Assembly: GCA_938034445.1 (NCBI GenBank)
Contig: CALHLD010000046.1
Coordinates: 1-43,212 of the forward strand
DNA from: an uncultured archaeon
GTDB taxonomy: Archaea; Thermoproteota; Nitrososphaeria; JACIWG01
Length of the DNA stretch: 43,212 bases
Direction: 5' to 3'
The notes beneath the pieces were generated by a model, which was not told the origin of the DNA, searched no databases, and saw only the letters and a list, made by a program, of their open reading frames with translations. Both the position numbers and the translations under genes were made by a program. How positions within the stretch are numbered: position 1 is the stretch's first letter; each line of letters begins with the position of its first letter. This document shows, piece by piece, positions 39,012 to 42,521 of this stretch.

Positions 39012-41309
39012 ATGTCTACCAAATTATTATCGTTAATGCCCTTGTACTGGATTCTTGATGTTTCTGGGGAAGAGGAGTCCAATGAGATTGAAATGTGGGC
39101 TGTTTCTGAGGATGGAGCGCGTGTTATTATTAATGATAGTTTTTGTGCTGAATTTTATGTGCAGTCAAGTAATGTGGAGGAGGATGTGAAGAGTATTAGG
39201 GTTATAGGTGGTGTTAAGGGTGTTGAAGTTGTTAATAAGAGTTTTAAGGGTAGGTTTCTTAGTCTGCTGAAAGTTTCTATAGGTAATCGTAGGTTGAATG
39301 ATGTTGTAGAAGAGGTTAAGAGAAGATGTAAGTATTTAGTGGATGTTTTTGAGGATGATATAAGGTTTTCTAATCAATATATTTTCAGAAGAGGTGTTAT
39401 ACCATCATCGTGGATGAACCTTGATGTTATTGACTATGGCCACTCTAATGGTTATCGTATTTTTAGGTTGGATAAGATAGTTTCAGCAGACTTTGAGAGG
39501 CCGCATTTTCCACAACTTAAAATTTTAGCTTTTGATGCCATTTTCTTTTCTCCGAAGGGTTCTCCTGATCCAGAGCATGGTTCTATAGTGGCTATTTCTG
39601 TGATAACTTCTGATAATGTTTCAAAGGTTTTTGTTGGAGAAGAAAAGCTGTTAATAGATGATTTCTTGGATTTTATTAAAGATTTTGATCCTGACATAAT
39701 TGTAGGATTTAATAGTAATAGGAAAATTATTCCTTTCCTTGTCGAAAGGTCTAAGAGGATTGGATTGGAGTTTAGCGTAGGAAGGTTGGATTCTGTGCCT
39801 AGAGGTAGTGTTTATGGGCATCAGTCCATTAGGGGTAGGCTAAATATTGACTTATATGATCTGGTCGAGGAAACTCCTGAAGTGAAATTGGAGACTTTAG
39901 AAGAGTTTACCCAATTTTTAAATTTGCCAATAGAATACGATACTATAGACGAGTATGAGTTGGCTGAAGTTTGGTCTAGGGATCGTGGTCGTGTTTTAAA
40001 GTATTTGGGTCAGAGGGTTAAAGGTATTTTTGAAATATATAAGCTTGTTGACGAATACATATTTTCTCTCTCACAGCTAACTTGTATGCCTGCAGACTAT
40101 GTTCTTACTGCGTCAACAGGCTTTAGGGTTGAAAGTTATCTTTCTAAACTGGCTGTAGAAAAAAATGAGGTGATTCCATCAAGGAAGGAGGTTGTTCACA
40201 TATCATATGCTGGTGGCATGGTTAGGTCTCCGTCTCCAGGATTGCATAAGGATATTGTTGTACTCGATTTTAGGTCAATGTATCCGTCTCTTATGATAAA
40301 ATATAACATTTCTTTTGACACAATAGACCCTAATGGGCCGATAACTGTGCCTAATTCGACAATAAGGTTCAGCGATAAAGAGGGTTTCCTACCCTATGCG
40401 CTGAAGAAACTTGTTGAAGAAAGGAGAAGGATAAGGGAGAGGGCGGATTCGCTTCCAAGAGATTCTTCAGAAAAAATCATATTGGATGCTAGACAGAGGG
40501 CTATAAAGGTTATCTCAAATGCAATATACGGTTACACAGGCTGGGCTGGTGCAAGATGGTATGCTAGAGAAATAGCTGAGGTTACAGCCACCTTGGGTAG
40601 GGAAACAATTTTGAATACTATAAGAAAAGCTGAAGAACTTAAGCTAAAAATTGTGTATGGCGATACTGATTCACTTTTTATAAAAAATGATAAGAAAATA
40701 GGTGAGCTAATAAATTGGATAGAAGGAACGCTTGGGTTAGAGGTTAAGGTTGATAAAATTTACAGGACAGTACTATTTACTGAGGCTAAAAAGAAGTATG
40801 CGGGCTTAAGAGATGATGGTGGTGTAGAAATTGTCGGCCTCGAAGCTATACGTGGGGACTGGAGTGAGGTAGCAAAGGCTGCTCAGAAGGAGGTTATAGA
40901 CGCTATATTAAAGGTTGGTGTCGAGGAAGGGGTTAAGGTTGCAAGAAGGCACATAGATGATCTAATGAATCAAAGAGTTCCGTTAAAACAGCTAGTGATA
41001 TGGAAGCAGATTACAAAATCTATAGAAGATTATGAGGCTACAGCACCACATGTTGAGGTTGCGAGAAAGCTTATTGAGGAGGGGTGGAGGATACAGCCTG
41101 GAGATAAGGTTGGATATGTTGTAGTGAAGGGAACTGGAAGGCTCTATACTAGAGTGAAACCATACTTTAAAGCAAACTTGAATGAGATAGACTGGAACTA
41201 TTATATTGAAAAACAAGTTTTACCCGTCTGTATGAGGATTTTGGAGGTCTTTGGAGTAAAAGAGTCAGATTTGAAGCCGACTGTGGGCTTAACAGCCTTC
41301 TTTCAATAA
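39012..41309 (+). CDS. polB: Family B DNA polymerase with degenerate proofreading motifs
   Basis: A 765-residue family B polymerase. Synthesis motifs are intact: motif A DFRSMYPSLM (D419), motif B K499/N503/Y506-G507 in KVISNAIYGYTGW, and motif C YGDTDS (D551, D553). Proofreading is not. Exo I, usually FDIE, reads FDAI (D175 kept, I177 for Glu). Exo II, usually NSNRFD, reads NSNRKI (I239 for Asp). Exo III, usually YxxxD, reads YLGQR (R335 for Asp). The C-terminal TVGLTAFFQ resembles a PCNA-binding box. The ATG at 39036 (MPLYWILDVSG) is a plausible alternative start, because TATA-like sequence lies directly before 39012. It converges with the DHH gene after three bases. Confidence 0.92.
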   Translation: MSTKLLSLMPLYWILDVSGEEESNEIEMWAVSEDGARVIINDSFCAEFYVQSSNVEEDVKSIRVIGGVKGVEVVNKSFKGRFLSLLKVSIGNRRLNDVVEEVKRRCKYLVDVFEDDIRFSNQYIFRRGVIPSSWMNLDVIDYGHSNGYRIFRLDKIVSADFERPHFPQLKILAFDAIFFSPKGSPDPEHGSIVAISVITSDNVSKVFVGEEKLLIDDFLDFIKDFDPDIIVGFNSNRKIIPFLVERSKRIGLEFSVGRLDSVPRGSVYGHQSIRGRLNIDLYDLVEETPEVKLETLEEFTQFLNLPIEYDTIDEYELAEVWSRDRGRVLKYLGQRVKGIFEIYKLVDEYIFSLSQLTCMPADYVLTASTGFRVESYLSKLAVEKNEVIPSRKEVVHISYAGGMVRSPSPGLHKDIVVLDFRSMYPSLMIKYNISFDTIDPNGPITVPNSTIRFSDKEGFLPYALKKLVEERRRIRERADSLPRDSSEKIILDARQRAIKVISNAIYGYTGWAGARWYAREIAEVTATLGRETILNTIRKAEELKLKIVYGDTDSLFIKNDKKIGELINWIEGTLGLEVKVDKIYRTVLFTEAKKKYAGLRDDGGVEIVGLEAIRGDWSEVAKAAQKEVIDAILKVGVEEGVKVARRHIDDLMNQRVPLKQLVIWKQITKSIEDYEATAPHVEVARKLIEEGWRIQPGDKVGYVVVKGTGRLYTRVKPYFKANLNEIDWNYYIEKQVLPVCMRILEVFGVKESDLKPTVGLTAFFQ

Positions 41310-41312
41310 ACT

Positions 41313-42521
41313 TTAATCCAGCACAAGACTCTTACGTTTAACTCTTCTAACACCATTAACCCAACCTTCGACAAACTTATCTAAACCTGAAATAAATTCT
41401 TCAAAACGTTCCTTCGGCACTATACAGCTTGCAGCAAATTCGTGGCCGTCAGAGAACCCTCCAACATCTTCGGCAACAGCTAATATGTCGATAGCGGAAG
41501 GCATCCTACCCTCCTCAACAGCCTTCTTCAACCTTTCAGGAACCCTAACAGACACCTTAACAAGCCTTTCACCAAGTCTTCCAAATCCTGGAATATTATC
41601 GAGCAAATCCATGTAGCCCAAAATATACTTGTCTAATTTAATGAGCCTTTTCTGGTAGCTTATGTAGGAGCAGAAGCTTCCAAGAACCTTACTTCCCATA
41701 CCACTAAAAATGTTTTTGGAATCAAAATACTGGATATATTTGGTTTCCTCTAAACCATTTCTATATAATATTGCTAGAAGCCTCTTATTTGCTTCTTTCC
41801 TTTCTCTCTCAAGCGTATCCAAAAACTTTTTGCTATCTTCAGAGAAGCCTTCTAATGCAACCTTTATGCCAACACCCGGTCCACCCCTATAATATCCAAC
41901 CGAACCCATAACTTGTAAAGCAGAAAAAAGCTCGTCCACAGACAACCCAAACCTAACAATCTCAAGACGCTTATTCTTTTTTAAAATATTATTTTTTAAA
42001 GCATCTTCTAAAACCTTAGCATTTAAGCCCACAATATCTCCAGGAATCTCTCTTGAGCCGACTATTGCAAGATATGAGAGGTCAAAGTTATTTTCATCTA
42101 ATATTATGGAAAAAAGGTATGATATGGTTGAGCCGGAAAAATCAGTTTCTCCTTTAAACCCAAAATATTCAAGATTTAAATCAAAAACTGAAGGTGTAGA
42201 AGTTGGTACAGGATCGTGATGGTCTAAGATTATTGTAGGACTTCCTTTAACATTTTTTAAAGAGATAAGGTCAGCGTGTGGTGAACCTAAGTCAGCATAA
42301 ATAACAGGCACACCTTCCTCGTGAACCGATTCAACAATCTTTGGAAACAACTTTTCTAAACATATGAGTTTAATATCAAATCTATTTTCTAAAGCCCTTT
42401 TAAGAATCGCTGCAGAAGCAAGTCCATCAGCATCATCGTGATGGACAATAAGAACTTTCTTATAATTTGATAAGAGTCTAATGGATTCTAAAGCTTTATC
42501 CCTAAAACTATTAGGATACAT
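41313..42521 (-). CDS. DHH-family phosphoesterase, RecJ-like
   Basis: A 402-residue DHH/DHHA1 protein. Motif I is VHHDDADGLASAA (residues 26-38), followed by YADLGSPH (D77) and DHHDP (D100-H101-H102), all intact, so metal-dependent phosphodiesterase activity is plausible. The C-terminal DHHA1 region ends with GGFSDGHEFAASCIVP, where GGH is replaced by DGH. Relatives include RecJ exonuclease, the GINS-associated nuclease and nano-RNases. The neighbouring polymerase suggests a DNA role, but the genes converge and are not an operon. Confidence 0.85.
   Translation of the reverse strand: MYPNSFRDKALESIRLLSNYKKVLIVHHDDADGLASAAILKRALENRFDIKLICLEKLFPKIVESVHEEGVPVIYADLGSPHADLISLKNVKGSPTIILDHHDPVPTSTPSVFDLNLEYFGFKGETDFSGSTISYLFSIILDENNFDLSYLAIVGSREIPGDIVGLNAKVLEDALKNNILKKNKRLEIVRFGLSVDELFSALQVMGSVGYYRGGPGVGIKVALEGFSEDSKKFLDTLERERKEANKRLLAILYRNGLEETKYIQYFDSKNIFSGMGSKVLGSFCSYISYQKRLIKLDKYILGYMDLLDNIPGFGRLGERLVKVSVRVPERLKKAVEEGRMPSAIDILAVAEDVGGFSDGHEFAASCIVPKERFEEFISGLDKFVEGWVNGVRRVKRKSLVLD

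Follow-up and report, generated by a model that had tools for sequence, protein, structure and literature searches.

The window, by which we mean the whole stretch of 43,212 nucleotides that was analysed, contains a gene for a family B DNA polymerase, referred to here as the window polymerase. It is flanked by genes for an MFS protein, a RecJ-like DHH protein and a VTT-domain protein. The features of the locus are listed in Table 1.

Table 1. Position and sequence of the features discussed in the text, in coordinates of the window.
Feature	Coordinates	Strand	Basis and remarks
Exo-dead PolB3-type family B DNA polymerase	39012..41309	+	765 aa; ORF reading, Pfam, 5mdn alignment, tree
N-terminal domain, degraded uracil read-ahead pocket	39066..39368	+	Column comparison
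Exo I FDAI, aa 174-177	39531..39542	+	5mdn FDIE; D175 kept, Glu replaced by Ile177
Exo II NSNRKI, aa 234-239	39711..39728	+	5mdn NSNGFD; Asp replaced by Ile239; identical in both genus-mates
Exo III YLGQR, aa 331-335	40002..40016	+	5mdn YVLDD; Asp replaced by Arg335
Polymerase motif A LDFRSMYP, aa 418-425, intact	40263..40286	+	Sequence reading
Polymerase motif B KVISNAIYGY, aa 499-508, intact	40506..40535	+	Sequence reading
Polymerase motif C YGDTDS, aa 549-554, intact	40656..40673	+	Sequence reading
Non-canonical PIP-like tail LTAFF, aa 760-764, no Gln	41289..41303	+	Sequence reading
RecJ/GAN-like DHH nuclease, convergent neighbour	41313..42521	-	Locus comparison

Exonuclease and polymerase sites of the window polymerase

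The 765-residue open reading frame matches the Pfam family DNA_pol_B at 227 bits and, more weakly, DNA_pol_B_exo1 at 64 bits. Alignment with homologues begins only near Met9, and translation may therefore start at codon 9 (39036). The closest solved relative is PolB3 of Pyrobaculum calidifontis (5mdn, E 1e-166), and the alignment of the two proteins runs without gaps across the exonuclease motifs. The four exonuclease carboxylates, typically Asp, Glu, Asp and Asp (DEDD) in PolB3 and stated to be conserved in this family (PMC5911459), are Asp, Ile, Ile and Arg in the window polymerase. Because of this substitution we describe it as an exonuclease-dead (exo-dead) variant and not as a canonical PolB3. 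The gapless alignment bears out the sequence-only reading that three of the four carboxylates are replaced. We also checked the alignment for carboxylates shifted to neighbouring residues and found none: apart from D175 itself, no Asp or Glu lies within five residues of a lost position, and the closest acidic residues (D186/E188, E245 and E341) are at least six residues away. D186 matches an Asp that is present in exo-intact PolB3 too and is therefore no substitute.

Polymerase motifs A, B and C are intact, as had been noted before. The catalytic residues D419, D551, D553 and K499 and the steric-gate residue Y424 are all present, and none of them varies among 103 exo-dead and 54 exo-intact homologues, leaving aside two rows without the motif C region. 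Taken with the lost carboxylates, these residues predict a polymerase-competent, exonuclease-dead B-family enzyme, in agreement with the earlier reading.

The same exonuclease losses are found in two genus-mates, G002 (83% identity) and G001 (75% identity), indicating that they are not sequencing errors; no PolB3 match was found in G003 and G004. The dN/dS ratio of the dead exonuclease domain is 0.09-0.13, near that of the polymerase domain (0.06-0.09), showing that purifying selection acts on the exonuclease domain despite its dead site. Conservation among the genus-mates and a dN/dS of about 0.1 rule out both sequencing error and a pseudogene. In the AlphaFold2 model (mean pLDDT 89.3), the exonuclease domain is complete and well folded, with block pLDDT values mostly between 81 and 97, and the best fold match in the PDB is 5mdn over the full length (TM 0.86). 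The exonuclease domain of the window polymerase appears to survive as a structural module only.

Descent and distribution of exo-dead PolB3

In a 63-row tree of the polymerase domain that includes PolB1 and PolB2, all PolB3 rows, the window polymerase among them, form one group (100/100). PolB2 forms a separate clade (100/99), made up of Sulfolobales PolB2, related forms of about 700 residues and DxD-bearing members. The separation of the two clades rules out membership of the window polymerase in PolB2. The earlier reading also held that PolB2 paralogues lose the polymerase site instead. That contrast is out of date, since DxD is retained in some PolB2 (PMC11791011) and activity of PolB2 has been described (PMC11791011, PMC8764526). 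PolB2/Dpo2 resembles the window polymerase in being a B-family enzyme with no functional exonuclease site and with a possible translesion or extender role (PMC8764526, PMC11791011). It differs in forming its own clade, in being shorter, in usually lacking the first Asp of motif C, in the absence of Exo III and in a structurally decayed exonuclease domain, whereas the window polymerase keeps the DTD motif and a complete exonuclease fold. The genus-mate G001 encodes an extra polymerase (L241) on the PolB2 side of the tree that has the sequence YADCDS; it groups with L242-L244, which have DxD (ADTD/GDTD).

To place exo-dead relative to exo-intact PolB3, we built a tree on the polymerase domain alone, leaving out the exonuclease columns. 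Forty-nine exo-dead sequences form a single clade (100/98, in 100% of bootstrap trees) that is nested inside exo-intact PolB3 and has long branches within it, which calls for caution. A second exo-dead branch (100/99) consists of three sequences, two of them identical, from Methanomethylicota-like families f62 and f65, and stands beside the exo-intact f49/f54. A single origin for all dead PolB3 was rejected (AU p=0.003). The exo-dead class, so far as sequences can tell, descends from exo-intact PolB3.

The four carboxylates were read in 106 PolB3 sequences that represent 50 family-level lineages within the host phylum. DEDD is found throughout 22 of these lineages and a dead site throughout the other 28; no lineage combines the two. 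Of 100 exo-dead TACK homologues, none has the Exo III Asp and only one has the Exo I Glu; 48 keep the Exo II Asp. Named members with a dead site include Bathyarchaeota, Geothermarchaeota, Brockarchaeota, Wolframiiraptor sinensis, Methanodesulfokora (Korarchaeota) and Methanomethylicota, and the Conexivisphaera-like genomes (f5) are exo-dead as well. In the named set, PolB3 of Thermoproteia, Asgard archaea and euryarchaea has DEDD. By these criteria the window polymerase belongs to an apparently ancient exo-dead group found in at least 26 family-level archaeal lineages, an affiliation that the sequence-only reading did not anticipate. We found no description of exo-dead PolB3 in the literature covered, namely openly available main texts. 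The accessible portions of the archaeal polymerase surveys PMC4104785, PMC7544198, PMC2527604, PMC2669801 and PMC11791011 treat inactivated PolB2 and Pol zeta/alpha and make no mention of it.

The uracil pocket and the C-terminal tail

Comparing conserved columns between intact and dead PolB3 shows that the positions lost in the dead group include those of the exonuclease site and the equivalents of V93, R97 and F116 of the Pfu polymerase. We take R97 to be a residue with a role in the uracil pocket. It is kept in 53/54 exo-intact but only 3/103 exo-dead PolB3, and none of the three sequences in the second, independent exo-dead group has it. With Pfu numbering mapped through an alignment with the Tgo V93Q sequence (2vwk), the equivalents of Y7, P36, V93 and R97 in the window polymerase are G19, A46, N96 and E100, and F119 (Pfu F116) is retained. 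V93 of Pfu lies in the uracil-binding pocket, and the V93Q mutation lessens stalling at uracil (PMC2847956). A conserved Tyr is required for read-ahead (PMC5911459); this residue is Gly19 in the window polymerase. Most of the uracil-stalling pocket is thus gone from the window polymerase, and exo-dead PolB3 appears to have lost both error correction and uracil sensing in each of the two independent losses.

The C-terminal tail of the window polymerase reads GLTAFFQ. A PCNA-box-like tail, as proposed in the sequence-only reading, is indeed there; the canonical Gln of the PIP box is missing from it, which weakens the argument drawn from the PCNA box. The Gln is likewise absent in 99/99 full-length exo-dead homologues. 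The canonical PIP sequence QxxhxxFF is present in 30/54 exo-intact PolB3 and is therefore typical of that group, not defining. Overall, the window polymerase resembles exo-intact PolB3 (Pyrobaculum calidifontis 5mdn; Pfu/KOD/Tgo) in domain order, fold and polymerase motifs, and differs from it in lacking the exonuclease metal site, most of the uracil pocket and the PIP Gln.

Possible roles beside PolD and PolB1

A search of the host genome for other polymerases recovered PolD, an exo-intact PolB1 and a third B-family enzyme. Of PolD, DP2 is present and DP1 has its DLH, GDLVD, GNHD, HG and GHVH motifs intact. The earlier suggestion that the organism proofreads by other routes agrees with these intact DP1 phosphoesterase motifs and with the exo-intact PolB1. 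The third enzyme (L003:1438-3315, G000:C5) is a 625-residue polymerase with an intact YGDTD motif. Like the window polymerase it looks active and has no proofreading site; it differs in being derived from PolB1 and in having the whole exonuclease domain deleted. It has relatives within the genus and among Bathyarchaeota-like genomes (L276-L278). The host genome yielded no Y-family polymerase, and neither did 46/58 exo-dead genomes. Since the sampled exo-intact genomes also lack one (0/22), this absence is not specific to the exo-dead group.

PolD DP2 was found in 48/58 exo-dead versus 2/22 exo-intact genomes (Fisher p 1e-9), an association in which the genomes are not independent evidence, as there were only two independent losses. 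The two sampled genomes that combine exo-intact PolB3 with PolD are G524 (f66) and G488 (f69), which would serve as controls for this association. DP2 was not detected in the Conexivisphaera-like (f5) genomes G010, G013 and G040, all of which have kept an exo-dead PolB3; G010 is a single contig of 1.594 Mb that is 99% complete. By hand count, 37/114 genomes from exo-dead families have no PolB3, against 2/123 from exo-intact families, a difference to which incompleteness of the metagenome-assembled genomes may add. The frequent absence indicates that PolB3 is dispensable in exo-dead families.

Our preferred reading, which we hold slightly more likely than not, is that exo-dead PolB3 is a retired replicase that became an accessory polymerase, lacking proofreading and blind to uracil, and that it probably serves to bypass lesions or to extend mismatched ends in the manner of Pol zeta. 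Faithful replication by PolD (and PolB1) would have released PolB3 from replicative duty, leaving it an accessory polymerase beside the two. Such an enzyme would extend primers with no excision and would not stop at deaminated bases; predicted properties are synthesis activity and tolerance of uracil and of mismatched ends. Its role would be like that of Pol zeta or of an extender that helps to bypass lesions and fill gaps, and overall fidelity would then rest on proofreading elsewhere by DP1 and PolB1. This reading would account for the joint loss of both brakes on two occasions. A candidate translesion role also agrees with two observations, the lost uracil sensing and the failure to detect any Y-family polymerase in the host genome. 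Pol zeta and Pol alpha are polymerase-active B-family enzymes with an inactivated exonuclease domain (PMC7544198), a design analogous to that of the window polymerase. They differ in being a separate lineage with a separate loss, and neither their C-terminal metal-binding domain nor a B-subunit is evident in the window polymerase. PolB2 lies in an operon with an inactivated RadA and arCOG07300/PPB2; the genes seen around the window polymerase are those of the MFS, RecJ-like DHH and VTT-domain proteins. Among the genes neighbouring the PolB3 loci we found no pointer to a damage response.

A role like that of Pol alpha, with brief extension of primase products followed by hand-over to PolD/PolB1, would need neither proofreading nor tight clamp binding. 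The loss of the PIP Gln throughout the full-length exo-dead homologues fits poor clamp binding, which would suit such a primer extender. In several other exo-dead lineages, PolB3 adjoins a gene (cluster c2) that we take, from our own reading of its sequence, to be dnaG-like. Linkage of polB3 and dnaG is described for crenarchaea (PMC4104785), and among family B polymerases Pol alpha is the classic example of an exo-dead enzyme (PMC7544198). However, no primase gene lies next to the window polymerase, about a third of the genomes of exo-dead families are missing PolB3, unlike what is expected of an essential primer extender, and this role gives no specific reason for the loss of uracil sensing. 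We consider this role unlikely. A lagging-strand or Okazaki-maturation polymerase, in which strand displacement and gap filling over short tracts would relax the need for proofreading, can be argued by analogy with the Thermococcus PolB, which aids lagging-strand synthesis and surpasses PolD at strand displacement (PMC13136892); the presence of PolD in most exo-dead genomes agrees with it. The thermococcal PolB-type enzymes, however, keep an intact exonuclease and uracil pocket, and this together with the frequent gene loss in exo-dead families makes such a function quite doubtful.

The remaining two alternatives would restore proofreading. In one, the adjacent RecJ/GAN-like DHH nuclease would proofread in trans. 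A RecJ-like gene lies next to or near exo-dead PolB3 at 13 loci (in f1, f2, f5, part of f30 and f38), on the same strand in most of them. In Baldrarchaeota (L092), however, the same nuclease gene accompanies an exo-intact PolB3; the linkage therefore predates the exonuclease loss or is independent of it. Most other exo-dead PolB3 (Bathyarchaeota, Brockarchaeota and Korarchaeota loci) have no such gene nearby; trans proofreading is therefore very improbable. We regard as equally far-fetched a residual exonuclease activity through unrecognised residues: D175 is retained in the window lineage and the Exo II Asp in about half of the dead homologues, but the near-universal loss of the Exo I Glu and Exo III Asp, and the lack of acidic residues close to the lost positions, argue against it.

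PolB3 is described as an archaeal family B enzyme that proofreads. A deep clade spanning much of non-crenarchaeal TACK has kept its polymerase and appears to have dropped the brakes at errors and at uracil, in parallel and twice. The division of labour among PolD, PolB1 and PolB3 becomes directly testable, and the group may be a source of natural exo-minus, uracil-tolerant polymerases. More tentatively, and with somewhat less than even confidence, we propose that exo-dead, uracil-blind PolB3 is a major ancient class with two origins, one in early non-crenarchaeal TACK and the other in Methanomethylicota-like genomes. Such a class would be an archaeal counterpart of Pol zeta/alpha that evolved independently, and would mark a step toward complete PolB3 loss in ammonia-oxidising archaea. 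The clade suggests how PolB3 could have vanished in those organisms. In families f23, f30, f32 and f55, PolB3 is frequently absent and is exo-dead where present, suggesting that loss of proofreading precedes loss of the gene.
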